The position numbers and the translations under genes were made by a program. Of a stretch of 64,000 nucleotides of DNA, positions 30,791-64,000 are shown one piece after another. Within the stretch, counting starts at the first letter, position 1, and every line of letters begins with the position of its first letter. The notes beneath the pieces were generated by a model. That model made no database searches, was not told the origin of the DNA, and saw only the letters and a program-made list of their open reading frames with translations. This DNA comes from Chiua virens. Lineage: Eukaryota > Basidiomycota > Agaricomycetes > Boletales > Boletaceae. The stretch spans positions 248,001 through 312,000 of the forward strand of contig JAHNUO010000020.1 in assembly GCA_019787685.1 (NCBI GenBank), in the 5' to 3' direction.

Positions 30791-30792
30791 AG

Positions 30793-30827
30793 GAGTTCTG
30801 TGTCGCTTGTTACCGCTCGGAGCTTTT
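30793..30827 (+). repeat. Terminal inverted repeat, outer end of left transposon
   Basis: The core 'cgcttgttaccgctcgg' matches the inner end 'tgcttgttaccacttgg' read on the opposite strand. The same sequence closes the right copy at 42369-42403. Confidence 0.8.
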
Positions 30828-31385
30828 CAGGGCTTTGTTCGGCTAACGACTTCAAGGTACCAGCATTATGGCCCCCAATGACCCCAGACACCTGCGGCGA
30901 CTGAAATTGAGTAACGTCATTATATTTGTACTTGATTGTTTTCTGTTTCGTTTATATACTGACTCGCTCTTTTCTTTCGACCATCATTGCCTCCCATCCC
31001 GCCTCGTCTTTTATCTCCCTTACTCGTCGCCACTCCCACCTGCCGCCACTCTTGCCGTCGTCTCTGCCCTGTTGCCTTCAACCCAATGCCCCTGTTAATG
31101 TGCTATTCGTGGAGTAGTGATACTGTTCGTTGTATGTGGTAGGTGTTTCAATTAATGTCGTTGCTGTGTTTATACTGATTATTGTTTCGGGTCTACCGTG
31201 CACATTAACATCCAGTGCACCTCTGAGTGCGCTGTACGTTGACAGCTGAGTAGGTTTATTAGTATTTATTGATGCTAATGTATTGCTTTGTGCCCCCATA
31301 TCGGTGCTATGTGTTGTGGTGTCTGTCCTCTGTGTGGTTGTATTCATTCTGTTTCTGGCTTCGTGTTGACGCTGTTGGATTCTAC

Positions 31386-34026
31386 CTATGTTGGCCGTGA
31401 AGGATTGTTCAACTTAGAGTGATATTGTTTACCTGTGTGGGTTATACTGCGGATTGCGCGGAACGTATGTGTTGATACAGCATCCCGTGGATTTATCCCA
31501 TGGTTGATGTGAAGGTCGATACTCGAAGTCACCCGCATGTCATATTGTTGGCCTCGCATAATGCCAGCGAGGAGAGTCAAGCCAATGCCATCTCGATTAA
31601 CGTTGCGATGCGCCTGTTCATTGCCGTTCGTTGTTGAAGGCGACGCCTTCCAAATGTATAAAGGAATAAGGCTATATGGTTGATATAGGGCAGGTATCAT
31701 GAACTTCGAGGTTTCTTTATCCTTTAACCACGCTTTCTGTGTCTCAGTATCAGTAATAGTCGCAATATGTCCAACATACCTTTCGCTTTTGGACTGCCAC
31801 GTCGAATCTTTACTAGAGTCATTTCAAAGTTGGTGTGTGGTTCTGAGGATGCAATGCTATACATTGCCTGAAGAACCTCCGGCGAAACCTCATGTTTCAG
31901 AGGTTGAATGTTCCGTTTAAAATGAACTACGCAGACACGGAAAAAACGCCTCAGATGATCATAGGGATCGAGTTTCTCGAGGCAACAATGTGGCTCATAG
32001 CGACACAGGTGTTTGTTCCCTCTGCAAAGTTCTACACAAAACTTCCCAAGCCCTGTAAAACATTAGACCAAGAAATATCAGAGATGAGAGAAAAAATACC
32101 TAAGGCCTGGCCGCGATGTCCATCAGCGATGACAGACTCGATACCTGTACCATGGATATGGAAAAATTGTACTGGGACACCGGTGTCCTGTTCTGCTACA
32201 TTGCAGATGCGGCGAAAGAGAATGACATGCGCGTCAGATGACTGTGACATCGTAAACGCACGTGCTAATACGATCACTGTTAATTGAGTGAATTATAATG
32301 AAAACAAACAATATATATATATATCAAGCTTACATCGTTGATGGGTATTATCCCAGCCTTCTATCTCGAATTCTTGCCATCCGCGTACGCGTTTGAATGA
32401 CGTGTCGATCGATATTCATTTGGCCAGCACAAGTAGGGATGACATTCGAGCAGTCATGCAAATGACAAGCAGGAAGTCATCCCCATTGGGAAGCTGATAT
32501 CGTTCGACCAGACGTAGATACCGGTGATCACGAGGCAACTTTTCATGCTCGCCAACTTGTTGTAGTGCACCTGTAATGATAATGTAACTAGGAAAAAGAA
32601 ACAAGAACGCGTGAGACATACCATGGAAACCTGTGCCTTGAGGAAAACTAGTCATCCACGAGTTGTTGATGATGCGTCTTAAATGATCGAGGTTGCCTAA
32701 TGACGGATGGAGATCGTGTGAAGAGGGATCCCATTCTGGAAGCGACCATGCAAGGGCATGGCGCAGGCTGCAGACAAATCCAGAATCAAGGGCGAGTCGC
32801 CTTGGCGTGGCATCGGCGAGTTTCCAATCGAGGCGTAATAGGAGGGCCTCGAGGCAGCTCACTAGCTGCGGTGGCGTCTTGATCGGGAGTGGTGGCGGGT
32901 GATTATGAGGATTGGTTGATACAATGACAATGCAAGGACAGTCTTGAAGATCGTTCGGAGTGTAGATATCGTACTTTGTTGGGCAGCTTTCGGCACATTG
33001 AAGGTTGCCGCGCTGCAGTTTATTGTTGCGATCACGGTGCCAATGCGCTGTAAATTTGATTAGATTGTTCGACATGCATGATTGAGTTTAATAGAAGTAC
33101 TCACGACAGTTTGATTTTTGCTCACTCGGGGATGCAGCGAACGTGCATGGGGCAAGGGGACCGACCCCCAGAGTCTTGAAAACATTCTCAGTGTGTAAGT
33201 AGCAAGTGCTATCGCCCAATAGCAGTGCATGGAGATAGTTTGTGTCGAACTCCTGTAGGTTTCGCAAAAGCAAGTGGGCCCTTGTTGGGTTGATCAAATG
33301 CTGTGAGCACCTTGAATTTCGGTCATGAGCATACTGCATAACGAAAAGAAAAATCACTTACTGTATATAAGGCTGGTTATAGCCGTCGTACAGCAGCTCA
33401 AGACGACTGTTGCACTTGGGAGTCCTGCGCTTGCGCATCGACAACTCCTTGGTGCACAATGCCAGTGGAGATTTGTTCTCCTGTTTGACGGTGTCACTTG
33501 AGTCGGGGAAATCATCAGCTGATGAAAACGCGCAGCCCTTCTTGATAAGGGCACAATAGAAGCCTAGTGTCTTGTGGAAAACCTCCACATGGGCATTATC
33601 TGTTGGTGAGGAAGCAGCGGCATGCAATGCCGTCGTATGAAGCAAGACCTCCTCGCGAGTCACAAACCAGTGTGGCGAGGCAATATATGGTCGAAAGGAG
33701 CAATAGCGGAGTCCTCTACCTGTAATTCTATTAGCACGATACGATTTACATAAAAAGGGAGTGGAGTTACATGATGTGCGCAGCTTTGAACACATGACAG
33801 GGTTACCTGACACACTCCGTAGCATCTTGCAAACGATATCACGTCATCCACCATGCCCATCTCCAAGTGAGTACTGAAAGTTGAAGCGAGGGTCGTGGAA
33901 GCAGTCAGGATTAATGTTGAAGATGTGGGCAACACTGATGCCCAGTTCGCTGCCGGTCTCTGGATATTCAACGATTGCGTCACGTGGATGCTCAACGACG
34001 TGGTGGGCGACCTTCTCATGGTTCAC
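31386..34026 (-). CDS. MULE-like transposase, left copy (interrupted by in-frame TGA)
   Basis: This is the mirror of 39170-41810, with the same exons, introns and stop codon. See that entry for domains. The in-frame TGA lies at 32416-32418. I saw no base difference from the right copy in the parts compared. Confidence 0.65.
32305..32327. repeat. TA dinucleotide microsatellite
   Basis: A run of alternating AT/TA lies in an intron of the transposase. The mirrored arm carries a run of the same length near 40870-40890. This is notable because such tracts usually change length quickly. Confidence 0.7.
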
Positions 34027-35096
34027 CTTGTGAAGGCCCTGGTCGCGCTTGGTCTCAGTGAATGTGTGGGATGGCCGAGGCCGATAGAGTGAAGCAAGGA
34101 TGGTGGGAGCAGGTGAAGATGTGGGGGTGGGTGATGATGACAGCGACGGTAAGGGAGAAGTGATCGACGAAGATGGAGAGGGAGGGAGGGAGGGAAAGGG
34201 AAAGGTCGGAGGAGAAAGAGAAGGCGGCTGTCAAGGCGGTGAGTGCGTGAACCCAAGCTGTAGCATGGGAGCACATACCTGGGCTAATGAGTGTGATTGC
34301 AGAGGTAGGGAGGAGGAGAATGGCTGAGGTGATGAGAAAGATGACTGGAATAACAAGTGAGGCGACGAGGATGTGAGCTCGGGCAGCATGAGAGCCGCCT
34401 GGGCTCCTGAGAGTGAGAGGTGAGCTGCCATCCAATGGGGGAGCGATCTAACGTGCTCACCCTTTATATATGTTCTTCAGATCGACATTATTTAGTTTAT
34501 CGATGGTGATCTGGGGGGTCACCGGTCACCGTCGATAGTTGTTGTCGCACTGGCAGACGATGTGACAGGTTTTCCTTTTTTGGTGGTACTGAAGTGTTGG
34601 GGCACAGCCATATCTAACTTTGCCACGCTCTTTGTCTCCAACCACAACGTTCACCAGTCAACACGACCCCCCCTCACCTTGACAATGCTGCTCGTATCAC
34701 ACATTTAAAAAGTAAACTTGGATCTTGTGGCCGCTTAGCAAGTACTCGAAGACTTTGCCGTGCTCGTTTTTGGAAGCTGTGGGCGCTTTTTTGGCAGGTG
34801 TGGGTAGATGTTCATGGCCAAGAGGGGTTATTTGAATGAACATTGGTACGTTAGACCTCGTCGCTGATTTATCTACTTTGGATTTTGACAGGATCTCATT
34901 TATTTTCCCTCCCACACGCAGAATTCCAAGCGCTTATCGACACTGCTGTGGCAACGTATGATCTCATCCTAATATCAGCGTTTCATTCGATATCTTCTTG
35001 GGCTGGGCATTGGAAAGGTATATAAGGGCTTGCTGCAGGTAGGACTTCCTCACTTCCAACTCTCTTTCGATCTCATCATTTTTCATCAGTTCTACT

Positions 35097-36252
35097 ATGT
35101 TTGCTGCTCTTGCCCATTCGCCATCTCCGCCACTGTTGCTAGCGATCCCCCGCTCGCCGTCTCCACCACTGTTGCCAGCACTCCCCATCGCAGCTGCCGT
35201 TCCCATCATACCTTCCATTGATGCGGTATTCCATCCCTGCATCGTAGCCCAGCTCGTGTCCAATGACATTGTCATTTATTCCCGTGATTTCGGTTGCGTT
35301 ATTACAGTTGCGTAGTACGTGAGCATAGTTCATAGAGTATATGGTGCTAACGATAATGATTCAGTCCAGTTCGGCTGTGCGGCACTCGCATTGTTCCGAG
35401 TGGCATTTTCTCTTGGATGCAGCGGCGTGGACTCGTGTTTGAGTGCTTCTGTGGGCTTGTATCAACTCAGAATACTCCAGCTCGATTTGTTGATGAGTTT
35501 GCCTCTGGACATACTGTAGTGCGCTGCCACTATGTCGAGAACCATTGTGGATTTTATCGTAAGCCTTCCTTCAATGTTCCAAGGACAGTGCTCACTCAAC
35601 TTGTCTTTAGTTGACCTGACGAAGATCCGCTTGATGACATTGTATGAATCCACCTATGAGTACCTCCCAACATCGAGTAGTAGTAAGCTTGATGTTTGTT
35701 CCCTGAGTTCTGCTTTTGTGCTAATTTCTACATAGTTGGTGCACCCAGGCCACAGATCAACAGAATTGTTAGGCAATGGCAGGACAGTGTTCGGCGAGAT
35801 ACAACATTGCTTCATCACTCTGCACCTTTTGTCGAAGGATATTTTACTATCCACACCTCACTCTATCCAGAAATTCAGCAGCTTCGCAGTGGCCTTTCAC
35901 AGCCGCTTGCACTGGCTACACCTCGTCGCTATCACCCATACAATCAGCCACAGCGACATGCACGTAGGTCGAACACATTCTATAAACATAACTATACACT
36001 AACAGTACCATAGGTGAATCTACTTCTGCATTGCATCACTACATGCAGTATCAGTCACCACATCGCCATACATCTGATAGAAACTCACGCATAGATGTTG
36101 CTGGCCCATCAAGACTTGGACATGGCCTACCACAGTTCAGCGAGCGTGAGATACATACACTAGACGCACTTCAAATGGGACTGGGAGTTACTGGGTTTGA
36201 GATGGATGAGCTCTTTGAACAGTGTGATCACTGCAGCAGGAGTTTCATGTGA
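35097..36252 (+). CDS. Transposon accessory gene, left copy
   Basis: A spliced gene is read away from the transposase. Coding islands include IVPSGIFSWMQRRGLVFECF, TPARFVDEFASGHTVVRCHY, RPQINRIVRQWQDSVRRD, and a C-terminal exon ending MDELFEQCDHCSRSFM with a CxxC pair. The Cys/His content suggests a metal-binding protein. No family is recognised. Genes of this type riding with the transposase could be DNA-binding helpers. The exon boundaries are approximate. The mirror copy is 36944-38099. Confidence 0.45.
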
Positions 36253-36532
36253 AGTGCACTGCGTGTACATATCAGGGAGGTAGGAGAGAGCCAAGAAACT
36301 GACTTCGAAAGAGACAATGAAGTGGATGGATAAAGTAAAGGTCGATGAAACAAAGAAGCATTGGCGAAAGGTATGCAGGACAAGGGAAATTTTCTTTGAT
36401 CATGGTATGCTTTATATAATGGATGTGTTATTGATTTTTTTAAATCACTTGTTTATCAATGTTTTGTGGTTTTTGGGGGCTATACTTTACGAGATGTTCG
36501 GACTCTTGTTTCTTCTCTTGAAAATACCCGCT

Positions 36533-36567
36533 AAAAGCCCCAAGTGGTAACAAGCAACACAACACCG
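36533..36567 (-). repeat. Terminal inverted repeat, inner end of left transposon
   Basis: It faces its mirror image at 36629-36663 across the 59-bp spacer. It differs from the outer repeat at 8 of 35 positions, and identically in both copies. Confidence 0.8.
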
Positions 36568-36576
36568 TATTGTTAG
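36568..36576 (+). repeat. Target-site-like 9-mer, inner side of left copy
   Basis: 'tattgttag' directly follows the inner end of the left copy. Its reverse complement 'ctaacaata' directly follows the outer end of the right copy (42404-42412). MULE elements typically make 8-11 bp duplications. Confidence 0.65.
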
Positions 36577-36627
36577 TACAAACGCGAGAGATCACGTACA
36601 GGCGCCGATGATGCTGTTCTCCTGTGA
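36569..36627. other. Palindrome spacer (59 bp)
   Basis: This is the only non-mirrored sequence between the two transposon copies. It contains the left 9-bp target-site copy at its left edge and an unrelated 9-mer (36620-36628) at its right edge. Confidence 0.85.
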
Positions 36628-36943
36628 ACGGTGTTGTGTTGCTTGTTACCACTTGGGGCTTTTAGCGGGTATTTTCAAGAGAAGAAACAAGAGTCCGAAC
36701 ATCTCGTAAAGTATAGCCCCCAAAAACCACAAAACATTGATAAACAAGTGATTTAAAAAAATCAATAACACATCCATTATATAAAGCATACCATGATCAA
36801 AGAAAATTTCCCTTGTCCTGCATACCTTTCGCCAATGCTTCTTTGTTTCATCGACCTTTACTTTATCCATCCACTTCATTGTCTCTTTCGAAGTCAGTTT
36901 CTTGGCTCTCTCCTACCTCCCTGATATGTACACGCAGTGCACT

Positions 36944-38099
36944 TCACATGAAACTCCTGCTGCAGTGATCACACTGTTCAAAGAGCTCATCCATCTCAAA
37001 CCCAGTAACTCCCAGTCCCATTTGAAGTGCGTCTAGTGTATGTATCTCACGCTCGCTGAACTGTGGTAGGCCATGTCCAAGTCTTGATGGGCCAGCAACA
37101 TCTATGCGTGAGTTTCTATCAGATGTATGGCGATGTGGTGACTGATACTGCATGTAGTGATGCAATGCAGAAGTAGATTCACCTATGGTACTGTTAGTGT
37201 ATAGTTATGTTTATAGAATGTGTTCGACCTACGTGCATGTCGCTGTGGCTGATTGTATGGGTGATAGCGACGAGGTGTAGCCAGTGCAAGCGGCTGTGAA
37301 AGGCCACTGCGAAGCTGCTGAATTTCTGGATAGAGTGAGGTGTGGATAGTAAAATATCCTTCGACAAAAGGTGCAGAGTGATGAAGCAATGTTGTATCTC
37401 GCCGAACACTGTCCTGCCATTGCCTAACAATTCTGTTGATCTGTGGCCTGGGTGCACCAACTATGTAGAAATTAGCACAAAAGCAGAACTCAGGGAACAA
37501 ACATCAAGCTTACTACTACTCGATGTTGGGAGGTACTCATAGGTGGATTCATACAATGTCATCAAGCGGATCTTCGTCAGGTCAACTAAAGACAAGTTGA
37601 GTGAGCACTGTCCTTGGAACATTGAAGGAAGGCTTACGATAAAATCCACAATGGTTCTCGACATAGTGGCAGCGCACTACAGTATGTCCAGAGGCAAACT
37701 CATCAACAAATCGAGCTGGAGTATTCTGAGTTGATACAAGCCCACAGAAGCACTCAAACACGAGTCCACGCCGCTGCATCCAAGAGAAAATGCCACTCGG
37801 AACAATGCGAGTGCCGCACAGCCGAACTGGACTGAATCATTATCGTTAGCACCATATACTCTATGAACTATGCTCACGTACTACGCAACTGTAATAACGC
37901 AACCGAAATCACGGGAATAAATGACAATGTCATTGGACACGAGCTGGGCTACGATGCAGGGATGGAATACCGCATCAATGGAAGGTATGATGGGAACGGC
38001 AGCTGCGATGGGGAGTGCTGGCAACAGTGGTGGAGACGGCGAGCGGGGGATCGCTAGCAACAGTGGCGGAGATGGCGAATGGGCAAGAGCAGCAAACAT
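36944..38099 (-). CDS. Transposon accessory gene, right copy
   Basis: This is the mirror image of 35097-36252, with the same coding islands and the same C-terminal CDHC motif. Function is unknown. Confidence 0.45.
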
Positions 38100-39169
38100 A
38101 GTAGAACTGATGAAAAATGATGAGATCGAAAGAGAGTTGGAAGTGAGGAAGTCCTACCTGCAGCAAGCCCTTATATACCTTTCCAATGCCCAGCCCAAGA
38201 AGATATCGAATGAAACGCTGATATTAGGATGAGATCATACGTTGCCACAGCAGTGTCGATAAGCGCTTGGAATTCTGCGTGTGGGAGGGAAAATAAATGA
38301 GATCCTGTCAAAATCCAAAGTAGATAAATCAGCGACGAGGTCTAACGTACCAATGTTCATTCAAATAACCCCTCTTGGCCATGAACATCTACCCACACCT
38401 GCCAAAAAAGCGCCCACAGCTTCCAAAAACGAGCACGGCAAAGTCTTCGAGTACTTGCTAAGCGGCCACAAGATCCAAGTTTACTTTTTAAATGTGTGAT
38501 ACGAGCAGCATTGTCAAGGTGAGGGGGGGTCGTGTTGACTGGTGAACGTTGTGGTTGGAGACAAAGAGCGTGGCAAAGTTAGATATGGCTGTGCCCCAAC
38601 ACTTCAGTACCACCAAAAAAGGAAAACCTGTCACATCGTCTGCCAGTGCGACAACAACTATCGACGGTGACCGGTGACCCCCCAGATCACCATCGATAAA
38701 CTAAATAATGTCGATCTGAAGAACATATATAAAGGGTGAGCACGTTAGATCGCTCCCCCATTGGATGGCAGCTCACCTCTCACTCTCAGGAGCCCAGGCG
38801 GCTCTCATGCTGCCCGAGCTCACATCCTCGTCGCCTCACTTGTTATTCCAGTCATCTTTCTCATCACCTCAGCCATTCTCCTCCTCCCTACCTCTGCAAT
38901 CACACTCATTAGCCCAGGTATGTGCTCCCATGCTACAGCTTGGGTTCACGCACTCACCGCCTTGACAGCCGCCTTCTCTTTCTCCTCCGACCTTTCCCTT
39001 TCCCTCCCTCCCTCCCTCTCCATCTTCGTCGATCACTTCTCCCTTACCGTCGCTGTCATCATCACCCACCCCCACATCTTCACCTGCTCCCACCATCCTT
39101 GCTTCACTCTATCGGCCTCGGCCATCCCACACATTCACTGAGACCAAGCGCGACCAGGGCCTTCACAAG

Positions 39170-41810
39170 GTGAACCATGAGAAGGTCGCCCACCACGTCG
39201 TTGAGCATCCACGTGACGCAATCGTTGAATATCCAGAGACCGGCAGCGAACTGGGCATCAGTGTTGCCCACATCTTCAACATTAATCCTGACTGCTTCCA
39301 CGACCCTCGCTTCAACTTTCAGTACTCACTTGGAGATGGGCATGGTGGATGACGTGATATCGTTTGCAAGATGCTACGGAGTGTGTCAGGTAACCCTGTC
39401 ATGTGTTCAAAGCTGCGCACATCATGTAACTCCACTCCCTTTTTATGTAAATCGTATCGTGCTAATAGAATTACAGGTAGAGGACTCCGCTATTGCTCCT
39501 TTCGACCATATATTGCCTCGCCACACTGGTTTGTGACTCGCGAGGAGGTCTTGCTTCATACGACGGCATTGCATGCCGCTGCTTCCTCACCAACAGATAA
39601 TGCCCATGTGGAGGTTTTCCACAAGACACTAGGCTTCTATTGTGCCCTTATCAAGAAGGGCTGCGCGTTTTCATCAGCTGATGATTTCCCCGACTCAAGT
39701 GACACCGTCAAACAGGAGAACAAATCTCCACTGGCATTGTGCACCAAGGAGTTGTCGATGCGCAAGCGCAGGACTCCCAAGTGCAACAGTCGTCTTGAGC
39801 TGCTGTACGACGGCTATAACCAGCCTTATATACAGTAAGTGATTTTTCTTTTCGTTATGCAGTATGCTCATGACCGAAATTCAAGGTGCTCACAGCATTT
39901 GATCAACCCAACAAGGGCCCACTTGCTTTTGCGAAACCTACAGGAGTTCGACACAAACTATCTCCATGCACTGCTATTGGGCGATAGCACTTGCTACTTA
40001 CACACTGAGAATGTTTTCAAGACTCTGGGGGTCGGTCCCCTTGCCCCATGCACGTTCGCTGCATCCCCGAGTGAGCAAAAATCAAACTGTCGTGAGTACT
40101 TCTATTAAACTCAATCATGCATGTCGAACAATCTAATCAAATTTACAGCGCATTGGCACCGTGATCGCAACAATAAACTGCAGCGCGGCAACCTTCAATG
40201 TGCCGAAAGCTGCCCAACAAAGTACGATATCTACACTCCGAACGATCTTCAAGACTGTCCTTGCATTGTCATTGTATCAACCAATCCTCATAATCACCCG
40301 CCACCACTCCCGATCAAGACGCCACCGCAGCTAGTGAGCTGCCTCGAGGCCCTCCTATTACGCCTCGATTGGAAACTCGCCGATGCCACGCCAAGGCGAC
40401 TCGCCCTTGATTCTGGATTTGTCTGCAGCCTGCGCCATGCCCTTGCATGGTCGCTTCCAGAATGGGATCCCTCTTCACACGATCTCCATCCGTCATTAGG
40501 CAACCTCGATCATTTAAGACGCATCATCAACAACTCGTGGATGACTAGTTTTCCTCAAGGCACAGGTTTCCATGGTATGTCTCACGCGTTCTTGTTTCTT
40601 TTTCCTAGTTACATTATCATTACAGGTGCACTACAACAAGTTGGCGAGCATGAAAAGTTGCCTCGTGATCACCGGTATCTACGTCTGGTCGAACGATATC
40701 AGCTTCCCAATGGGGATGACTTCCTGCTTGTCATTTGCATGACTGCTCGAATGTCATCCCTACTTGTGCTGGCCAAATGAATATCGATCGACACGTCATT
40801 CAAACGCGTACGCGGATGGCAAGAATTCGAGATAGAAGGCTGGGATAATACCCATCAACGATGTAAGCTTGATATATATATATATTGTTTGTTTTCATTA
40901 TAATTCACTCAATTAACAGTGATCGTATTAGCACGTGCGTTTACGATGTCACAGTCATCTGACGCGCATGTCATTCTCTTTCGCCGCATCTGCAATGTAG
41001 CAGAACAGGACACCGGTGTCCCAGTACAATTTTTCCATATCCATGGTACAGGTATCGAGTCTGTCATCGCTGATGGACATCGCGGCCAGGCCTTAGGTAT
41101 TTTTTCTCTCATCTCTGATATTTCTTGGTCTAATGTTTTACAGGGCTTGGGAAGTTTTGTGTAGAACTTTGCAGAGGGAACAAACACCTGTGTCGCTATG
41201 AGCCACATTGTTGCCTCGAGAAACTCGATCCCTATGATCATCTGAGGCGTTTTTTCCGTGTCTGCGTAGTTCATTTTAAACGGAACATTCAACCTCTGAA
41301 ACATGAGGTTTCGCCGGAGGTTCTTCAGGCAATGTATAGCATTGCATCCTCAGAACCACACACCAACTTTGAAATGACTCTAGTAAAGATTCGACGTGGC
41401 AGTCCAAAAGCGAAAGGTATGTTGGACATATTGCGACTATTACTGATACTGAGACACAGAAAGCGTGGTTAAAGGATAAAGAAACCTCGAAGTTCATGAT
41501 ACCTGCCCTATATCAACCATATAGCCTTATTCCTTTATACATTTGGAAGGCGTCGCCTTCAACAACGAACGGCAATGAACAGGCGCATCGCAACGTTAAT
41601 CGAGATGGCATTGGCTTGACTCTCCTCGCTGGCATTATGCGAGGCCAACAATATGACATGCGGGTGACTTCGAGTATCGACCTTCACATCAACCATGGGA
41701 TAAATCCACGGGATGCTGTATCAACACATACGTTCCGCGCAATCCGCAGTATAACCCACACAGGTAAACAATATCACTCTAAGTTGAACAATCCTTCACG
41801 GCCAACATAG
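39170..41810 (+). CDS. MULE-like transposase, right copy (interrupted by in-frame TGA)
   Basis: Islands of one protein are linked by short introns (about 39416-39475, 39839-39885, 40092-40149, 40575-40626, 41096-41142, 41417-41457). An N-terminal zinc-finger-like part includes CPCIVIVSTNPHNHPPPLPI, a C...C...HxH arrangement like the WRKY/GCM1 fold of MULE transposases. Next come SIDTSFKRVRGW (likely first catalytic Asp), FFHIHGTGIESVIADGHRGQ (second acidic region) and VVHFKRNIQPLKHEV. The conserved C-terminal SPSTTNGNEQAHRNVNRDG is known from the expanded Agaricomycete family. Just before SIDTS the frame carries TGA at 40778-40780 with no splice signal to remove it. The copy is thus probably inactive, or needs readthrough. 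A start further upstream (38761 or 38765) is possible. Confidence 0.65.
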
Positions 41811-42368
41811 GTAGAATCCAACAGCGTCAACACGAAGCCAGAAACAGAATGAATACAACCACACAGAGGACAGACACCACAACACATAGCACCGATATGG
41901 GGGCACAAAGCAATACATTAGCATCAATAAATACTAATAAACCTACTCAGCTGTCAACGTACAGCGCACTCAGAGGTGCACTGGATGTTAATGTGCACGG
42001 TAGACCCGAAACAATAATCAGTATAAACACAGCAACGACATTAATTGAAACACCTACCACATACAACGAACAGTATCACTACTCCACGAATAGCACATTA
42101 ACAGGGGCATTGGGTTGAAGGCAACAGGGCAGAGACGACGGCAAGAGTGGCGGCAGGTGGGAGTGGCGACGAGTAAGGGAGATAAAAGACGAGGCGGGAT
42201 GGGAGGCAATGATGGTCGAAAGAAAAGAGCGAGTCAGTATATAAACGAAACAGAAAACAATCAAGTACAAATATAATGACGTTACTCAATTTCAGTCGCC
42301 GCAGGTGTCTGGGGTCATTGGGGGCCATAATGCTGGTACCTTGAAGTCGTTAGCCGAACAAAGCCCTG

Positions 42369-42403
42369 AAAAGCTCCGAGCGGTAACAAGCGACACAGAA
42401 CTC
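42369..42403 (-). repeat. Terminal inverted repeat, outer end of right transposon
   Basis: Exact mirror of 30793-30827. Confidence 0.8.
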
Positions 42404-42412
42404 CTAACAATA
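42404..42412 (-). repeat. Target-site-like 9-mer, outer side of right copy
   Basis: 'ctaacaata' is the reverse complement of the 9-mer at 36568-36576. It is in the wrong orientation for a simple insertion and in the right one for an inversion between two copies. Confidence 0.65.
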
Positions 42413-48904: not shown

Positions 48905-51532
48905 TTTTGAGAGCTTGGACCTAAGAGATTTCCTCTCGTTCTAGAGCAAGAGGATCTTGTGACACAAATCTTTTCGTTGGACGCTGCGTTGTTGCGCCCA
49001 GCCAAGTTTCCGTGTCTCAGCGTCGAGGGATTTGTTTTCCGCCGTTACATGGCCGCAAAGATTCCCGAGCTCAGGGACTTGCGTAGCTCTCGTACGAAGT
49101 TCGTCATTCGCCCTTGCGTCCTTGTCTTGAGGAGCTCCGCCAACCCTTTCCATCGGGCCATGTTAGCGTGAAAAACCTTTTGATATCAGTGAGCACCATT
49201 GATCCAAATCGCTGAGTCGAAGAAAAGAGATACCTCGTAGAATGCCTTGATTGTTGCGACACCTTCATGTGCCTGTCCCTCAGCTACTTTCACCCTCATC
49301 TCCAGCTCTAGGTTCTCATCCCGCACGGAACTGACGAGCGCGGGTGCTTGTGCATATTGTTCGCGGAAGAAGTCTGTCTTCCTAAGCAGAGACCGTGGTA
49401 GACCTCTGCGACTCCACGGATGCACGGACTTCCTCGATAGAACGTAACAAGGATTCTTATTTTTCCTTGACCCACGAAGTCTTCTTGGCCTCCGACCACT
49501 TCACCCGGTCCTTGTCCAGTTCCCCGCAGACTTTGGCTGGCGCAGTCAACTCTTCTGGTCGTTGTGTCATGGCATTCAGCAGAGGATCGCGTTTCTTCGT
49601 CCAGGCGACACGCTCGGCCTCCAATCCCGATAACTGGATATGAACTTCTTCAGTTCGTGCAGCTGCGTCCCATAACTCGGTGACACGCACCAGGAGAAAT
49701 TCGTCCTTTCCTCGGACTTCGCCTTGTGCTGCGTCTACCACGCCAAGGAATCATTCTCCCACTTGCAACGCTCCTCGGGCCATCGAGCGTGCTCCACTTT
49801 TCAGGCAGTGAGAACGGGGCCTGTCAGCTCCGAGGACTGTCGGACGACGAGCTTGACCGTCAAGCCCTGCAACCATTTGCGCTCCTCAGACAGCTCGCAT
49901 TCAAGCGCTGTTGAATCTCCTCGGACTTGACGTTCAGCAAGGAAAGGACTTCGCTAAGCCATCTCTTCGGCGAGTCGGTCTAATCAAGGATAGTGGTGTG
50001 AGCTTGTATCCGAATATCGTAATGGACAACGTACCAAGATCTCCGGGACCGGGCGGCAATGAGAGTTGGCTAGTTGATTAGATGGCGATGAAGCCATGGC
50101 TGTTTCTTTGTGGCATGGTTCTTGGCTGATCTGAACAATAACGCTGGCTTGTTGAAGGTCTGGAAGGACGTTCGGGATGCTCAACGTCTATGATTTCTTT
50201 GCTGTGGAGGGAGTGCTAAATCACTTGTCAGTTACGCTGAACACTAGCTTTATGAGACGCAAATCGGGCACTTGCACAACATTCCCCTTGCCCACGACGC
50301 CAGTACGGGAGGTGGTAGGTAGACGATCTTCTTGACGAAGCCGTATATGTAAGCGGTTCCTCTCTGCCTGGCTCATTCGCCTCGCCTCACTGTACTCCAG
50401 GAAGCGTACTGTTCGTCCCATCGGATTTGTGATAGGTATCATTTGAGTGGCATTCCGTGCACACGCAACCTGTGTAACATGGAAGGGAACACCATTGGTA
50501 GCGTCAGTGCCCGTGACCTGACCACAGAAGAGTGTAGTCCTCTCGTGCATTGAAAGCGATTCGTGCATCGTGGTGGACGAGTACGATTCAGGACTTGAAG
50601 GAGAGAGCGCAGGGCCGGAGAAAGAGAATGACAGTAGAGAAGCCACCTATGCTTCAGAGAGGGTATGACGTTCGTATCAATGTCTACGCCTGGCTCAGGG
50701 CTCGCGAGACGACGATTCAGGTAGTCGAGTATCAACTTGTCGTCACTGCTCTCCCCCATCTCTGTTTCCAGAGTGTCGAACACGGCATGAAACATTTTCT
50801 TGCCCACATGGGTGGTCATCAAAACCTATTCAAAAATCAGAAAATCGATCAATTCAAGCACATAGGCGACACACTCTTCGCTCAGCTCCATCCTCGAACT
50901 AAATTTAGTAGCGGTGATGCTTCTCCAACGTCTGGTGTCTCCACACGGCAATAACTTTCGGAGGGGCTATCAAGATCGCTGGACGTCCAAATATAATAGA
51001 GAATCCATTGGCGCCGATAGCTCCGCTGTCTACCAAGGACAATGGCATCCCTGAACGGGGACAGGTGAGAGAAACGAAAAGAGGGGCATGCCGGGCGTCG
51101 CAAGGGAACGAGGACCTATCGAAAGAGTTGTCGTATTGACAAAAATACCAAGATTCGACTGCCAACGTTGAGGAGTGACAATTGACGACAGTGATCTTGA
51201 GAGCGATGATACGAGTACGCAGGTCCGTGATGCCGAGAGCGGCGAAGTCAATCGCGTACGACTGCTGGTAGGGGAGGTTTCAACAAAAGAAGGCTGTTCG
51301 TCGTCTTCATTCTATTGCAAGTGGAGAATAACTGATCTCATGGTGCACTGAGCAAAAAGGGGGACGACAAGACTAGATACAGTAACGTACCGTCATTTGC
51401 TTCCCCTTTGCTTCGAACCACTGAACCACGTTGTTCGGCGTTGTACTGACGTTGTAAGACTTGGCGATCAAACGGAATCGCAAGCTCCCAACTAAGAGAG
51501 GTTGTCACTTCTTCGAAATAAAGATCAGCCAT
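48905..51532 (-). CDS. Unrecognised coiled-coil protein gene, copy 1 (probably degraded)
   Basis: Several coding islands lie on the minus strand. An N-terminal exon ending VVQWFEAKGKQMTV is followed by a beta-rich part (ESWYFCQYDNSFDRSSFP; SGAIGANGFSIIFGRPAILI) near 50900-51170. A polar part (GVPFHVTQVACARNATQ; SQAERNRLHIRLRQEDR) lies near 50221-50560. Heptad-like helices (TEEVHIQLSGLEAERVAW; VCGELDKDRVKWSEAKKTSW) lie near 49457-49741 and again near 49000. The same islands recur in copy 2. Frames break between islands more often than introns can explain, so at least one copy is likely decaying. No function can be assigned. Confidence 0.4.
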
Positions 51533-56511: not shown

Positions 56512-59500
56512 TTAATCAACTTGTACAATTGCACAAAAGTGTGACTTACATATGAGATTCTTTGAAATCAGATCCATGATTGCCACAGTCATCCCCTCTG
56601 TGTCTTTGGGATTGTGTTGATCAGCTAGCAGAGTCACTGCTTGTTGAACTTTGGCACATGTGCCAGATGATTTGTACAATTTGGCAGCAGTTGCAACTGA
56701 TTCTGGATTGCCTTGCTGGTGGAGATGGAAGGAATGCACCATAATGATGGCAGAATCTATACAGATATTGAAGGGGTGGGAATGGGATACCAAACAAGAC
56801 TGACCAATGCCCAATAAAAGGGCTTTTTTCCATGGTTTCAAGGTCCATGGGAACTGAATTATGCAAAGTATTGTGGGAATTTGAAACATGTTCTAGCATG
56901 AAAATAGTGCACGTACCATTGATTTTGAGGGTGTTGAGTGTGCTGTGGCACCATATGGAACTTGGTCCTGATGTAAAACAATGTGAGAATTTAAATCTAA
57001 ATATAAGAAACTTGATAAATAAAAATACCTGTGGAGAGTGTAGCAACTATATGAAATGACATTAATCACTGATTTGGTGAAAGTGAGATAGTACAACAAA
57101 CCTCCTGCAAAATAAAGATGAAAATGAAGTAAAAAAAGAGAATGATTTGGTTTCACCTTCTAGAAAATGGAGATAGCACAAAAAGAGTATTCAATGATAT
57201 TGCATACAAGGCTTCAAATATGTCTTACATCCTGAGGGATATTAGAGGGAGCAAGATGGATTCAATAACTTGTAACTAAGACTTACAAGCTATGAATGAG
57301 AGAGCATGGTGGGAGCAGACATGGACATGGATCAGAATCACTCTGAGACCTCCAAGAACAGTCAGACCACTTACTTCCTATGAATGAGAGAACATGGTGG
57401 GAGCAGACATGGACATGGATCAGAATCACTCTGAGACCTCCAAGAACAGTCAGACCACTTACAAGCTAAGAATGAGAGAACATGGTGGGAGCAGACATGG
57501 ACATGGATCAGAATCACTCTGAGACCTCCAAGAACAGTCAGACCACTTACATACTATGAATGAGAGAACATGGTGGGAGCAGACATGGACATGGATCAGA
57601 ATCACTCTGAGACCTCCAAGAACAGTCAGACCACTTACATACTATGAATGAGAGAACATGGTGGGAGCAGACATGGACATGGATCAGAATCACTCTGAGA
57701 CCTCCAAGAACAGTCAGACCACTTACATACTATGAATGAGAGAACATGGTGGGAGCAGACATGGACATGGATCAGAATCACTCTGAGACCTCCAAGAACA
57801 GTCAGACCACTTACTCGCTATGAATGAGAGAACATGGTGGGAGCAGACATGGACATGGATCAGAATCACTCTGAGACCTCCAAGAACAGTCAGACCACTT
57901 ACAGCCTATGAATGAGAGAACATGGTGGGAGCAGACATGGACATGGATCAGAATCACTCTGAGACCTCCAAGAACAGTCAGACCACTTACAACCTATGAA
58001 TGAGAGAACATGGTGGGAGCAGACATGGACATGGATCAGAATCACTCTGAGACCTCCAAGAACAGTCAGACCACTTACTTCCTATGAATGAGAGAACATG
58101 GTGGGAGCAGACATGGACATGGATCAGAATCACTCTGAGACCTCCAAGAACAGTCAGACCACTTACAGCCTATGAATGAGAGAACATGGTGGGAACAGAC
58201 ATGGACATGGATCAGAATCACTCTGAGACCTCCAAGAACAGTCAGACCACTTACAGCCTATGAATGAGAGAACATGGTGGGAACAGACATGGACATGGAT
58301 CAGAATCACTCTGAGACCTCCAAGAACAGTCAGACCACTTACTCGCTATGAATGAGAGAACATGGTAGGAGCAGACATGGACATGGATCAGGATCACTCT
58401 GAGACCTCCAAGAACAGTCAGACCACTTACAAGCTATGAATGAGAGAACATGGTGGGAGCAGACATGGACATGGATCAGAATCACTCTGAGACCTCCAAA
58501 AACAGTCAGACCACTTACATACTATGAATGAGAGAACATGGTGGGAGCAGACATGGACATGGATCAGAATCACTCTGAGACCCCCAAGAACAGTCAGACC
58601 ACTTACTTGCTATGAATGAGAGAACATGGTGGGAGCAGACATGGACATGGATCAGAATCACTCTGAGACCTCCAAGCACAGTCAGACCACTTACAAGCTA
58701 TGAATGAGAGAACATGGTAGGAGCAGACATGGACATGGATCAGGATCACTCTGAGACCTCCAAGAACAGTCAGACCACTTACATACTATGAATGAGAGAA
58801 CATGGTGGGAGCAGACATGGACATGGATCAGGATCACTCTGAGACCTCCAAGAACAGTCAGACCACTTACAAGCTATGAATGAGAGAACATGGTGGGAGC
58901 AGACATGGACATGGATCAGAATCACTCTGAGACCTCCAAGAACAGTCAGACCACTTACTTCCTATGAATGAGAGAACATGGTGGGAGCAGACATGGACAT
59001 GGATCAGAATCACTCTGAGACCTCCAAGAACAGTCAGACCACTTACTTGCTATGAATGAGAGAACATGGTGGGAGCAGACATGGACATGGATCAGAATCA
59101 CTCTGAGACCTCCAAGAACAGTCAGACCACTTACAGCCTATGAATGAGAGAACATGGGAGCAGACATAACACCAATGGACATGTATCAAAATCTCTCCAT
59201 TTCTCAATTTGATCACATTTCTTACCTGCCAATATTTGTAAGCACTTCACATCCATATAGAAATTCCACACTTTCTTACATTGACATGTGGGAACCATAT
59301 ACCCATTCTTCTCATCAAGGACTCTTGCTCTTTCTGATCAAATCTTCCTACTGGAGACAATTTGCCACCAATGAATGGCACCAAGGTTCTATGACATATA
59401 TCATGTGTAATTCACTAAACAATCCTGAACATTAATAAAGGGTCACATACCTGTCAACAGCATATTTCACACAAAGCATGATGTTTGCATTTTGTGTGGT

Positions 59501-60504
59501 CACAAACAGCATTTCCAAACTTTCATCATTCAAAGCAGCTGCAGTCTTTTCTAGCACAATCCTGCATCCTTCATTGGATTTCTGCATATCTGCAAAAAAA
59601 TTCACATAGTGAGATACCTGTATATCAACCCCAATTTCATACAGACCTTTGACTTCAGCATACACTTTTGGGGGATTTTTCCTTTTTTGCAATCTTTCCC
59701 AAATTCTACTATTCTTTACCATGCTTTCCTCGACTTCCTTCACCTTGGCAAGTCTTTCCTGCTCAGGTAGTTTCTTGTCCTCGGCTGTCAATGCAGCCAC
59801 TGCCAACACTTGCAATGCATCACATTTTGTGAACAGAACCACAACAGGTACTGTCCCGAAAGTACAGTAAAAATAAAACAATGAATGGACATTTAAGAAA
59901 AGCCTACCATTTCCTGTTTCACATTGATCAAAAAACTTTTCCTCCGCGGTCAAGATAGCGCGGTGTATCTGATCCATCGGGATACAGTACCTATCCAACA
60001 GTTGTGGTTAGCACGTCATAAATGGATCTGTGTTTACCATATAGCGTGGACACGCTTCTTGAGGAATGTCACCTTAGCTCGCTCGGCGACAAAGTCCTTC
60101 ATCTTGTTAAACTCGTCGACACTACCGGCTTCAAACCCACGGGAGTCATGGAAGACAAAACCGGGGTTACTTTGAAAGACCATCTCGTTCTCGATATTGT
60201 GTTCTCCCCGCTTGGGACATGTGAGATCGTGATAACGAGGGTTGATGTCTAAACCTGGTATTCACCTCCGCAGACTCTTCGATCTGTGCCAGATCGACCT
60301 GATCACAGGCCATCAGTCCACCTGTGAGATCAGAAACCCCAGGTTGGCATACAAACATACCTTTTTCCCTTCTCCGTCATAGATCTCTGGATTCTCCTTC
60401 GAATTACAGATTTGCTTGAGAAGTGTCGTCTTCCCAGCGTTGGCCCGTCCGATGACAAGGATTCGGAACCGTCCAAATTTCTGTCTGATATCATCGATCT
60501 GCAT
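56512..60504 (-). CDS. G-domain GTPase with an array of single-codon exons
   Basis: My model has 36 exons and 1323 coding bases (440 residues): 60504-60361, 60298-60266, 60210-60038, 59990-59908, 59850-59647, 59589-59451, 59388-59280, then 22 three-base exons at 88-bp steps from 59137 to 57287. Three more three-base exons follow (57231-57229, 57159-57157, 57104-57102), then 57046-57029, 56967-56917, 56853-56805 and 56756-56512. Domain signs are P-loop GRANAGKTT (residues 19-27), G3-like HDSRGFE (Asp81), and G4-like FTKCD. TLVPFIGG...IWFPHVN is the signature after the G domain in related Agaricomycete GTPases, and FPWTLKPWKKALLLGID starts a C-terminal helical domain. All joins keep frame. The role of these GTPases is unknown. 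The first ATG is uncertain, since the frame is open further upstream. Confidence 0.8.
57102..57104 (-). other. Predicted single-codon exon GAG
   Basis: It is flanked by 'ttttgcag' and 'gtttgttg' on the minus strand. Flanking introns of about 52 and 55 nt are unrelated to the 88-bp array. Confidence 0.6.
57157..57159 (-). other. Predicted single-codon exon AAG
   Basis: It is flanked by 'ttttctag' and 'gtgaaacc' on the minus strand, between introns of about 69 and 52 nt with unrelated sequence. Confidence 0.6.
57229..57231 (-). other. Predicted single-codon exon GAT
   Basis: It is flanked by 'ccctcag' and 'gtaagac' on the minus strand. It is the first codon after the repeat array. Confidence 0.6.
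57287..59137 (-). repeat. 88-bp tandem array: 21 units of 85-nt intron plus one variable triplet
   Basis: Variable triplets start at 57287 and recur at exactly 88-bp steps up to 59135, 22 in all. On the minus strand each is preceded by 'attcatag' ('attcttag' once) and followed by 'gtaagtgg' (by 'gtaagtct' after the last). The 85 bases between triplets differ by only a handful of substitutions across all units. The triplets take seven values: CTT five times, TAT five, GCT four, GAA three, CGA two, CAA two and GTT once. Variation is concentrated in the triplet. A shortened piece of the unit (lacking four bases) forms the 3' end of the intron entering the array (59138-59166). Confidence 0.95.
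59221..59230 (-). other. Zero-length exon or recursive splice site
   Basis: Inside the intron before the array the minus strand reads 'ggcag|gtaag', an acceptor joined directly to a donor. This would allow the 139-nt interval to be removed in two steps. Confidence 0.45.
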
Positions 60505-61429: not shown

Positions 61430-64000
61430 CTCTCGTTCTGAAGAGGATCCTGCGATACAAATAGTTTCGTTGGAAGACGCTGCATTGTTGCGCCCAGCCA
61501 TGTTTCAATGTCTCAGCTTCGAGGGATTTGGTTTCCGCCATTATACGGCCACAAAGATCCACAAGCTCAGGAACTTGCGCAGCTTTCGTACGAAGTTCGT
61601 CATTCGTCCGTAGGTCCTATTCTTGCAGGAGCCCCTGGACCGTCAACCCTTTCTATCGGGCTATGTCAGCCTGCAAAGCCTTGAGACGACAGTGAGCACG
61701 CTGATCCAAATCGCTGAGTCGAAGAAAAGAGATACCTCATAGAACGCCTTGATTATTGCGACACCTTCATGCGCCTGTCCCTCGGTTATTTCACTCTCTT
61801 CTCCAGCTTTAGGTTCTCATCCCGCACGGAACTGACAAACATGGATGCTTGTGCATAATGCTCACGGAAGAAGTCTGTCCTTCCGAGCAGAAGCCGTGGC
61901 AGACCTCTGCGACACAACGGATGTACGGACTTCCTCGAGAACGTGACAAGGATTCTTATTTTTCCTGCAGCGCCGCACGCTCACCGTCTAATCCGGCTTT
62001 TTCCTCGACCCATGAAGTCTTCTTGGCCTCCGACCACTTCACCCGGTCCTCGTCCAGTTCCCCGGTCCTCGTCCAGTTCCCCGCAGACTTTGGCTGGCGC
62101 AGCCAACTCTTCTGGTCGTTGTGTCATGGCATTCAGCAGAGGATAGCGTTCCTTCGTCCAGGCGATACGTTCGGCCTCCAATGCCGACAAATGGATACGA
62201 ACTTCTTCAGCTCGTGCAGCAGAGTCCGATAACTCGGTGACAGGCGCCAGGAGACTCGTCCTTTCCTCGGACGTCGCCTTGTGGTGCGTCTGCCACGCCG
62301 AGGAATCACTCTCCCACTTGCAACCCTCCCTGACCTGTCGAGCGCGCTCCGCTTCCCAGGTAGCGAGAACGGGACCTGTCGGGTCTGAGAACTGTCGGAC
62401 GGCGAGCTCGGCCTTCAAGCCCTGCTGAATCACATCGGACTTGACATTCAGCAAGGAAAGGGCTTCGCTGAGCCATCTCTTCGGCGAGTCGGTCTAAACG
62501 ATTATAGTGGTATGAGTTTGGATCCAAATATAGTAATGGACAACACACCAAAAATTCCGGGACTGGGCGGCGATGAGAACTGGCCAGTTGATTAGATGGG
62601 ATGGTTGTTCCTTCGTGGCGTGGCTATTGGCTGACCTGAACAAGAATCCTGGCTTGTTGAAGGTCCAGAAGGACATTTGGGATGCTCAACGTCCGTGATT
62701 TCTCCGCCGCGGAGGGAGTGCTAAACCACTTGTCAGTTACGCTGAACACTGGTTTCAAGAGACGCAGATCACCCCTGGGAACCCGGGAGCGGGCAGTTGC
62801 ACAACATTCCCCTCGTCTATGACTCCAGATACAGGAGTAGACGATCTTCTTGACGAAGCTTTTTCTGTAAGCGATGCCTCCCTGCCTCGTTCATTGGGGA
62901 GTCCGAAACCGTACTGTTCATCCCTCCATTCAGATCGATCGATCACTCCATCCCATCGGGTTTGTGTAATAGGTGTCCCTTGAGTAGGGTTCCGCGTGCA
63001 CACAACCTGTGTAACATGGAAGGGAACACCATCGATAACGCTGGTGCTCATGACCCAATCACAGGAGGGTGTAGTCCTCTCGTGCATCGAAAGCGACTTG
63101 TGCATTGTTTTAGCGGAGGTGGGCGAGTAAGATTTAGGGCTTGAAGGAGAGAGCGCAGAGCCTGAAAAAGAGAATGACCGTAGAGCAGCCGCCCATGCTC
63201 CAGAGAGGGGGTATGTGGCTCAGGGCTCGCGAGTGGACGATTCGAGTAGTCGAGTATCAACTCGTCGTTACTGCGCTCCCCCGTTCTGTTTCCAGGTGTC
63301 GAACACGGCATGAGACATTTTCCTTGCCCACGTGGGTGGTCATCAAAACCTATTCAAAAATCAGGAAATCGATCAATTCAAGCGCCTGGACGACACACTC
63401 TTCGTTCAGCCCCCGTCCGAACTACATTTAGTAGCGGTGACGGTTCTCCAACGTCTGGTGTCTCCACACGGCAATAAGTTTTGGAGGGGCCATCAAGATC
63501 GCTGCGCGCCCAAATCTAATAGAGAATCTCTCGGCGCCGATAGCTCCGCTGCCCAGCGGGGACAATGGCATCTCTGAACAAGGAACAGGTAAGAGAAACG
63601 AAGAGAGGGGAAATGAGGACCTATCGAAAGAGTTGTCGTATTGACAGAAATACCAGATTTGACTGCCAACGTTGAGGAGTGACAATCGAACAACATTGAG
63701 CTTGAGAGCGATGGGAGGGTATGAGTATGCGGGTCCATGATGCCGGGAGCGGGTTTGGAAGGCAGAGTTGGGGAAATCAATCGCGTACAACTGCTGGTAG
63801 GGGCAACAAGAGAAGGTTAGTCCTTGTCTTCATTCCATTGGAAGTGGAGAATAACAGACTTCGTGGCGCACTGAACAGAAAGCGGGACGACAAGACGAGA
63901 TACAGCTACATACCGTCGTTTGCTTCCCTTTCGCTGCGAACCATTGAACCACGCTCCTTGGCGCTGTACCAACGTTGTGAAACCTGACGTTCAAAATGAA
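61430..64000 (-). CDS. Unrecognised coiled-coil protein gene, copy 2 (partial, 5' end off window)
   Basis: The coding islands are the same as in copy 1. VVQWFAAKGKQTTV lies near 63930 and SQIWYFCQYDNSFDRSSFP near 63650. VPFHVTQVVCTRNPTQ lies near 63000. A longer uninterrupted coiled-coil stretch at 61981-62454 includes LATWEAERARQVREGC, LSALEAERIAWTKERY and VCGELDEDR. A further helical piece (LCGRIMAETKSLEAETLKHG) lies near 61530. It contains a short internal duplication near 62040-62085 ('cggtcctcgtccagttccc' twice). Frames shift between islands. The first exon starts beyond base 64000. Confidence 0.4.

Follow-up and report, generated by a model that had tools for sequence, protein, structure and literature searches.

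Introners are spread over many unrelated genes, and the repeat of the PRDM9 zinc-finger minisatellite is coding and read through in frame. The PRDM9 repeats are near identical, carry hypervariable codons, and turn over by gain and loss of units, as described in PMC3890296. In fungi, the nonself-recognition genes of the HNWD/NWD multigene family (het-d, het-e) contain WD-repeat arrays (PMC1805685); there, near-identical tandem units are exchanged within and between loci, their number varies, a few residues are hypervariable, and the WD repeat itself is translated, with four variable residues per repeat. The 1-nucleotide (nt) exon of Fusarium CYP621A is called the smallest exon described in fungi in PMC12940212; recursive splicing is treated in PMC13149111, and introner-like elements in fungi are the subject of PMC4457414. 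Here, we compare these systems with a locus of the bolete Chiua virens (Boletaceae), an array of triplets and near-identical predicted introns on the minus strand of a P-loop GTPase gene. The stretch of DNA analyzed, referred to as the window, is 64,000 nt long (positions 248,001 to 312,000 of contig JAHNUO010000020.1, assembly GCA_019787685.1).

The sequence indicates that the 22 triplets of this array are very probably single-codon exons of the GTPase gene, joined in phase 0 into a hypervariable segment before a conserved C-terminal domain. The array resembles those of the HNWD/NWD genes, likewise a multigene family, and of PRDM9 in its near-identical units, its few hypervariable codons, and the exchange, gain, and loss of units. 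Unlike the HNWD/NWD repeats, about 96% of the Chiua unit is intron, as judged by its signals, and one residue is exposed; unlike the PRDM9 repeat, the unit has a length that is not divisible by 3, and each codon would form an exon of its own. As with microexons, the triplets are far below normal exon size, lie between canonical splice sites, and are missed by annotation, and unlike the one conserved microexon of Fusarium CYP621A, they would form about 8 to 48 consecutive hypervariable exons per gene. Many near-identical introns occur in the genome, as with introner-like elements; unlike introners, the listed Chiua copies are in tandem and in one gene family.

Array structure in the window and across the gene family

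The 22 triplets ran at an exact 88-bp period from positions 59137-59135 (GCT) to 57289-57287 (CTT), in the order GCT CAA GAA CTT TAT CTT CAA TAT CTT CGA GCT GCT GAA GTT GCT CGA TAT TAT TAT CTT GAA CTT, which encodes A-Q-E-L-Y-L-Q-Y-L-R-A-A-E-V-A-R-Y-Y-Y-L-E-L. Directly before each triplet stood CATTCATAG (CATTCTTAG in one case), and directly after each stood GTAAGT. Among the 21 copies of the 85-nt intron compared, 8 of 85 positions were variable, each in one to three copies, and the exon preceding the array ended ...GIWFPHVN in phase 0 before GTAAG. The original prediction, made from the sequence of the window, had described 22 triplets with this period, these flanking signals, and this residue order, almost invariant intervening bases, and a phase-0 start after the IWFPHVN exon; a renewed reading of the sequence bore all of this out. 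Beyond that prediction, the analysis identified a 23rd, conserved triplet, additional possible single-codon exons, a downstream C-terminal domain, and another 67 loci of the family.

A genome search for the 85-nt intron, which had been suggested as a check, gave 373 matches, and identical copies occurred on different contigs. The junction pattern CATTCATAGNNNGTAAGTGGTCTG, with at most two mismatches, had 1564 matches genome-wide and none in a reversed control, indicating that the array pattern is no product of chance. The GTPase family comprised at least 68 loci (82 matches to the pre-array GTPase exons, counted by hand), of which 14 were close (79 to 95% identity to the pre-array exons of the window gene) and 54 were distant (43 to 62% identity). 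For array analysis, 40 of the 68 loci were retrieved: the complete set of 14 close loci plus 26 from the 54 distant ones. All 40 contained an array, and each array was followed, at most about 7 kb further on and on the same strand, by a match to the C-terminal domain (compared by hand); array sizes ranged from 8 to 48 units. The modal introns of the first 22 loci were mostly 82 to 86 nt long; 18 started with GTAAGT and 20 ended with ATTCATAG, and their middles differed between close and distant loci. Seventeen of these 22 modal introns had a CTRAY-like branch site 40 to 42 nt upstream of the acceptor without an intervening AG; the exceptions were L020, L021, and L026 (no such site), L023 (site misplaced), and L025 (site at 29 nt).

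Splice signals and composition of the triplets

The gap between acceptor and donor (YAG...GTAAG[TA]) was exactly 3 nt in 988 units of the 40 loci, which thus have the form of microexons, with a few nucleotides between canonical splice sites. The remaining gaps comprised 12 of 0 nt, 2 of 1 nt, 5 of 10 nt, and 1 each of 2, 5, 7, and 12 nt, with none of 4, 6, 8, 9, or 11 nt. The first 22 loci contained 532 gaps of 3 nt and none of 2, 4, 5, or 6 nt; in the rest of the window outside the array, only two gaps of 3 nt were present, counting both strands. Genome-wide, exact matches numbered 263 for length 3 (control, 1), 1 for lengths 0 to 2, and 7 for lengths 4 to 12, and five of these seven were one repeated sequence. 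Intron length varied between loci, and the triplet remained 3 nt, in phase 0, between the GTPase exons and the C-terminal domain; the 3-nt gap was kept even in arrays whose introns differed by about 8 to 32% (L019, L022, L027, L028, L030, and L034 to L037). The upstream exon ended in phase 0, at the homologous codon and directly ahead of GT, in 19 of 22 loci; L023 and L026 had no usable match, and the match in L024 was not followed by GT. These gap counts support the predicted series of consecutive phase-0 single-codon exons, as do, indirectly, the transcript-like proteins of relatives described below.

Recursive splicing is marked by a zero-length AG/GT; the array gaps are 3 nt. Of the 12 zero-length gaps, 11 were a CAG/GTAAG within the leader intron, each in a different one of the 14 close loci, and the twelfth lay in L024. 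In three loci (L020, L021, and L024), the CAG of such a gap was scored as a triplet as well; an AG preceded it in L020 and L021. The leader-intron CAG/GTAAG could, from its sequence, serve as a zero-length (recursive) splice point.

Stop triplets were rare. The main runs contained 2 among 1036 triplets (TGA in L048 and L050), compared with 74 expected from independent base frequencies, a crude model, and CGA stood at the place of the L048 TGA in its near-identical partner L049. Under three models in the first 22 loci, 9 to 15 stops were expected and none was found among 339 triplets of close loci, and 15 to 29 were expected and 2 were found among 214 triplets of distant loci. The exact pattern with TAA or TGA (TAG was not searched for) had no match genome-wide, and an AG-TAG-GTAAG match in L013, upstream in the GTPase exon region, was left uncounted. 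TAT, which together with the G of the acceptor likewise spells a donor-like sequence, GTATGT, was the second most common triplet (127 occurrences); a bias against donor-like triplets would therefore not suffice to explain the shortage of TAA and TGA.

The third base was A or T in 1008 of the 1036 triplets, compared with 53% of 4348 family exon codons (47 matches, 22 loci). Triplets ended with C once and with G 27 times, whereas 18.5% and 28.5% of the exon codons did so, respectively. Because NNC before GT always forms a CpG, C-to-T decay might account for the missing NNC triplets, not for the shortage of NNG. The near-absence of NNC and NNG was the only trait of the triplet palette that was general across loci. 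In the 14 close loci, NTA and NCA did not occur, NGT made up 9 of 339 triplets, and nearly every residue had one codon. A palette rule based on splice competition (avoidance of NTA, NCA, and NGT) was rejected; GCA, CCA, TCA, and ACA were common in other loci. Triplets starting with A were rare (68 of 1036 in the 40 loci).

Diversity of triplets and introns

Per site, triplets exceeded introns in divergence 12 to 144 times in pairwise comparisons of nine close arrays. The original prediction had held that variation concentrated in the triplet sets the array apart from a neutral minisatellite, and this ratio agrees with it; concentration of variation in a few codons is also the mark of a coding minisatellite. 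Translation of the whole repeat, another such mark, does not fit the 88-bp unit, the mixed unit lengths elsewhere, or the intronic signals of the remainder. In L029, 32 introns of 83 nt had 1 substitution in 2656 bases and 33 triplets were of 7 types; in L044, 26 introns were identical (2158 bases) and 8 triplet types were present, counting the terminal GGT. Triplet heterozygosity was 0.70 to 0.91 across intron diversities of 0 to 0.32 (Spearman coefficient, 0.16; P = 0.37; 33 arrays), and the arrays look born diverse. The original prediction had offered an amplified intron-plus-codon unit with codons free to differ as one of two origins; it was the closer of the two, and the absence of any rise in triplet diversity with intron divergence speaks against it.

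Linkage between introns and triplets was weak, not nil. Identical introns with a non-consensus variant formed 151 within-array pairs; these shared the triplet upstream in 24 cases (28.8 expected) and the one downstream in 28 (24.4 expected). In the six pairs whose introns had at least two variants, the triplet upstream was shared in 3 (1.0 expected). Across 30 arrays, intron similarity was associated (P < 0.05) with the preceding (upstream) triplet in six and with the following (downstream) triplet in three, coefficients reaching 0.27. With the terminal intron excluded, 6 of 31 arrays showed greater likeness between neighboring introns than expected by chance, and 2 of 31 did so for neighboring triplets. 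Neighbor structure of the introns had been considered as a sign that triplets were scrambled after copying of the introns; this was rejected when a count of 8 of 14 arrays at P < 0.05 proved to be inflated by the distinct terminal intron, and the shrinkage of the signal lowers the odds for a codon-directed renewal of the arrays. In 2 of 19 arrays, the triplet order contained more off-diagonal repeats than its shuffled versions did, and between paralogues, triplet order was similar in 1 of 66 pairs (P ≤ 0.05).

Upstream flanks were at least 90% identical in 82 pairs of loci, of which 10 had similar triplet order (P ≤ 0.05, shared terminal triplets included), 4 of these 10 having flanks at least 99% identical. 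In total, the identity of the upstream flanks (330 nt) was 99% or more in nine pairs. Arrays remained in register in three of these: L034/L035 (differing by three whole units), L036/L037 (identical triplets), and L048/L049 (few changes); L044/L045 shared triplet order in part. The arrays of the other five pairs were unrelated: L038/L039 (20 and 35 units), L042/L043 (19 and 28 units), L011/L012, L016/L017, and L011/L016. Longer flanks, compared for six of the nine pairs, had 0 to 3 differences in 417 to 487 bases upstream; the downstream differences were 2/1326 (L034/L035), 52/1426 (L036/L037), 9/919 (L048/L049), 3/495 (L044/L045), 2/82 (L038/L039), and 7/647 (L042/L043). The commonest intron was identical between the copies in L044/L045, L038/L039, and L042/L043. 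A lysine-rich peptide (QYQKKKKGYGKKFKEKEARACKVFEEKD) would be encoded by L043 (C42) and a G/P/Y/L peptide (GPYPYYLGPGPGYGLYPLD) by L042 (C41), despite near-identical flanks. Such pairs may be dikaryon haplotypes or recent duplicates; assembly or polishing error, possible in principle, is hardly a source of diverse triplets at constant spacing. In the three in-register pairs, triplet changes versus intron changes were 0/57 versus 2/1520, 0/63 versus 20/1611, and 1/77 versus 58/2100. Continuous targeted mutation at the triplets was rejected on this basis, because triplets changed no faster than introns, and any targeted process would be episodic.

Proteins of related fungi

Transcript-like proteins without introns, from contigs of 1.1 to 2.3 kb (sources jgi and lgn) of other fungi, related boletes, ran through the corresponding site, with a variable segment between WFPH and the C-terminal domain. 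The segment was about 13 residues in P0004 (WFPHSQ-ERFEVFREFVFEF-...) and 26 residues in P0079 (WFPHIW-ARYYYDDVRDLDVLDLLRDLDVLLLL-KREKLDRSDCEKMQSRL). P0121 was 76% identical to P0079 over the searched region, with near-identical flanks on both sides of an unrelated middle of 33 residues (ADGFRRDDLRFVSSIRFLSDDRFSLSRDLRFDF). The segment of P0129 was about 40 residues, and that of P0130 was the same except for 17 extra residues (ASRLIPHYLCLLIIIYQ) between NTY and TYYF, as would result if an intron were retained at a codon boundary. Judged from the protein alone, the insert fits a retained GC-AG intron with a GCAAGT start and a CAG end.

Several NCBI models of such genes ended near the array. Suillus gene models (P0132 to P0143, and also P0126) contained a translated 22-residue repeat, VSVSILVRATAMLIQVVAHRSQ and variants, and between its copies stood Y, A, EA, ER, RR, DDE, and similar residues. 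By eye, a GTPase or C-terminal-domain stretch was present in 7 of 12 models, and no such stretch was recognizable in the other five (P0135, P0139, and P0141 to P0143). The protein sequences suggest that the seven models have the same architecture, with another intron and 1 to 4 codons per exon; the Suillus intron repeat may also occur in other genes. The protein entries that translate the repeat are probably wrong, and the public gene models at the loci seen appear to be wrong, either cut near the array or with introns translated.

The best Foldseek matches of P0004 included the IRG/dynamin-like GTPases Irga6, GM4951, and BDLP (E values from 3e-6), with a G domain followed by helices; these matches had query-normalized template modeling scores of only 0.30 to 0.38 and 10 to 12% identity. 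We know of no IRG protein with such an exon array. The segment of one relative was predicted to be a helix with moderate confidence, and the prediction for another had low confidence. The original suggestion of a helix-like peptide found no general support; the idea was rejected because the pooled residues lacked the periodicity of a helix, with P values of 0.85 for 100 degrees and 0.07 for 180 degrees.

Gene structure and other features of the window

The features of the gene are listed in Table 1. The product matched Pfam MMR_HSR1 with 25.4 bits, above the gathering cutoff of 21.9. An alignment of 10 loci showed conservation of the final CTT, of the linker exon, and of the GAT that follows a 55-nt intron, this GAT being identical in all 10. 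Of 22 loci examined for the linker exon, 12 matched, and all 12 had AG before the same codon position.

Table 1. Coordinates of the array and of the surrounding gene features in the window
Feature	Positions	Strand	Remarks
First GTPase exon, P-loop GRANAGKT	60361..60504	minus	ATG at 60504; exon ends judged by eye
Open reading frame with further GTPase exons (VPVVVLFTKCD, ...MLFVTTQNANIMLCVKYAVDR)	59432..59998	minus	
Last pre-array exon TLVPFIGGKLSPVGRFDQKEQESLMRRMGIWFPHVN	59280..59388	minus	Phase-0 end; homologous codon then GTA in 14/14 close loci
Leader intron before array	59138..59279	minus	Internal CAG/GTAAG at 59226/59225
Array of 22 predicted single-codon exons and 21 near-identical 85-nt introns	57287..59137	minus	88-bp period
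Terminal conserved predicted single-codon exon GAT (D), 23rd triplet	57229..57231	minus	Follows distinct 55-nt intron
Candidate single-codon exon AAG, tentative	57157..57159	minus	CAG in 4/10 aligned loci; acceptor TAG, weak donor GTGAAA
Candidate single-codon exon GAG, tentative	57102..57104	minus	Nonstandard donor GTTTGT
Linker exon DQVPYGATAHSTPSKSM	56917..56967	minus	Phase 0 on both sides
Exon FPWTLKPWKKALLLGIG, start of C-terminal domain	56805..56853	minus	Ends judged by eye
C-terminal helical domain exon (DSAIIMVHSFHLHQQGNPES...DLISKNLICK)	56545..56756	minus	Lower end from match, not stop codon

Elsewhere in the window, positions 30791 to 42405 formed an 11.6-kb near-perfect palindrome that was 99.7% identical to its own reverse complement, with its center near 36598 and mirrored open reading frames; an inverted duplication and a fold-back of the assembly are both possible sources. 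The stretches 49892 to 51472 and 62405 to 63995, each about 1.6 kb long and on the same strand, were 78.6% identical.

Alternative explanations

Several observations weigh against single-codon exons. The units were picked by their splice signals, so conservation of these signals is partly by construction, and two further TGA triplets in L026, outside the main run, bring the stop triplets to four overall. That the contigs encoding the transcript-like proteins are complementary DNA is inferred from their intronlessness and size. Few residue types were seen in the segment only in P0004, P0079, and the truncated P0060, with a wider range in P0021, P0030, P0121, P0122, P0128, P0129, and P0131; the NCBI genome models P0062, P0080, P0107, and P0124 have a short segment only, in which the array may have been skipped by annotation. 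In Suillus, 1 to 4 variable residues, not strictly one, separate the repeat copies. The encoded residue order lacks amphipathic periodicity and has almost no similarity between paralogues. If the array were instead a noncoding minisatellite within one long intron, its triplets would never be included, and its signals would look conserved because the repeat is young. Tandem, near-identical units are as expected for such a repeat, yet this explanation is highly unlikely, given that the gap stays at 3 nt in 988 units while intron lengths change, also in arrays with strongly diverged introns, that stop triplets are rare, that the third base of the triplet is unlike that of family exons, and that relatives' transcript-like proteins have a variable segment at the site. 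Invasion of a preexisting exon by one mobile intron, inserted between successive codons, was the other origin offered originally, and it is scarcely credible. The absence of intron differences in L044 and the single one in L029, next to diverse triplets, would suit it, as would the five Suillus models with the repeat and no recognizable GTPase or C-terminal stretch. However, we know of no basis for insertions exactly every 3 nt, triplets ending in C or G are far rarer than in family exons, and codon orders are unrelated in five of the nine pairs with nearly identical upstream flanks. Furthermore, the 100 listed copies of the 263 exact-pattern matches belonged without exception to a single gene family: 99 were close to a match to the GTPase exons, and one was close to a match to the C-terminal domain. 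This counts against the introner-like option in this genome. In a genome search for an intronless copy, no match to the pre-array exons covered both in one piece; with the C-terminal query, some matches read through its last intron, and the array, not being in the query, could not be covered.

Use of the single-codon exons in combination or in mutually exclusive fashion, one gene giving many isoforms, is possible and rather doubtful. The units are interchangeable and frame neutral, and the segments of relatives range from about 13 (P0004) to about 40 (P0129) residues; against this, the segments of P0079 and P0121 fall within the genomic array range of 8 to 48 units, suggesting that most units are kept, and P0129 and P0130 share the same long order. 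A further explanation concerns the origin of the diversity, not splicing, and is compatible with single-codon exons: concerted evolution with diversifying selection may suffice, recombination homogenizing the introns and selection keeping the codons different, as in the fungal WD-repeat het genes or PRDM9 (PMC1805685 and PMC3890296). On balance, this is somewhat favored. It agrees with the whole-unit change in copy number in L034/L035, with identical introns on different contigs, with triplets that change no faster than introns in register pairs, and with the weak intron-triplet linkage (upstream in 6 of 30 arrays and downstream in 3 of 30). Invariant introns beside fully diverse triplets, however, would need recombination between every triplet and its flanks, and neither the chance-level sharing of triplets by identical variant introns, nor the lack of higher-order triplet repeats in 17 of 19 arrays, nor the independence of triplet and intron diversity is as expected.

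Discussion

If the triplets are single-codon exons, splicing would proceed by intron definition, probably one intron after another, the removal of each placing the following donor no more than 3 nt from the junction. The donor signal, usually the full GTAAGT, would be wholly intronic, leaving the three exon bases free to vary. Because each unit would be one phase-0 codon, its gain, loss, or skipping would keep the frame, and the length and order of the array would be free to change; differences of three units and of whole arrays were seen between loci with near-identical flanks. The introns would act as interchangeable, recombining spacers, while selection on the encoded residues may keep the segment different between genes and alleles. 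The selected role would probably be nonself or partner recognition by an IRG/dynamin-like GTPase; nonself recognition is a guess from the loose resemblance of the G domain and the allele-like variability, and variability between loci with near-identical flanks was the sole trait of the allorecognition type seen.

For the renewal of the triplets, the conservative guess is that a shared library of units is shuffled under selection. It is also conceivable, and on present evidence rather unlikely, that boletes have an active codon-directed system that rebuilds arrays in bursts, with identical introns and fresh single codons. If so, each allele of about 70 GTPase genes would receive a new random peptide of about 10 to 50 residues, and the system would be the eukaryotic equivalent, based on splicing, of a diversity-generating system, with introns as the scaffold and the triplet as the sole variable letter.

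A literature search returned no description of such arrays in the titles and abstracts listed, most subscription papers and preprints being outside its reach. If the triplets are spliced in, then one gene family would contain well over a thousand single-codon exons, to our knowledge with more consecutive minimal exons per gene than anywhere else, and the spliceosome would need to ligate 3-nt exons by the dozen in the correct order, a test of intron-definition models. Such splicing would also be a new route to a hypervariable protein, frame safe, with one residue per repeat and with the recombining DNA absent from the product. Two questions would thereby be open to direct test in ordinary mushrooms: how the splicing machinery handles exons of minimal size, and what lets codons diversify between identical bases on either side.

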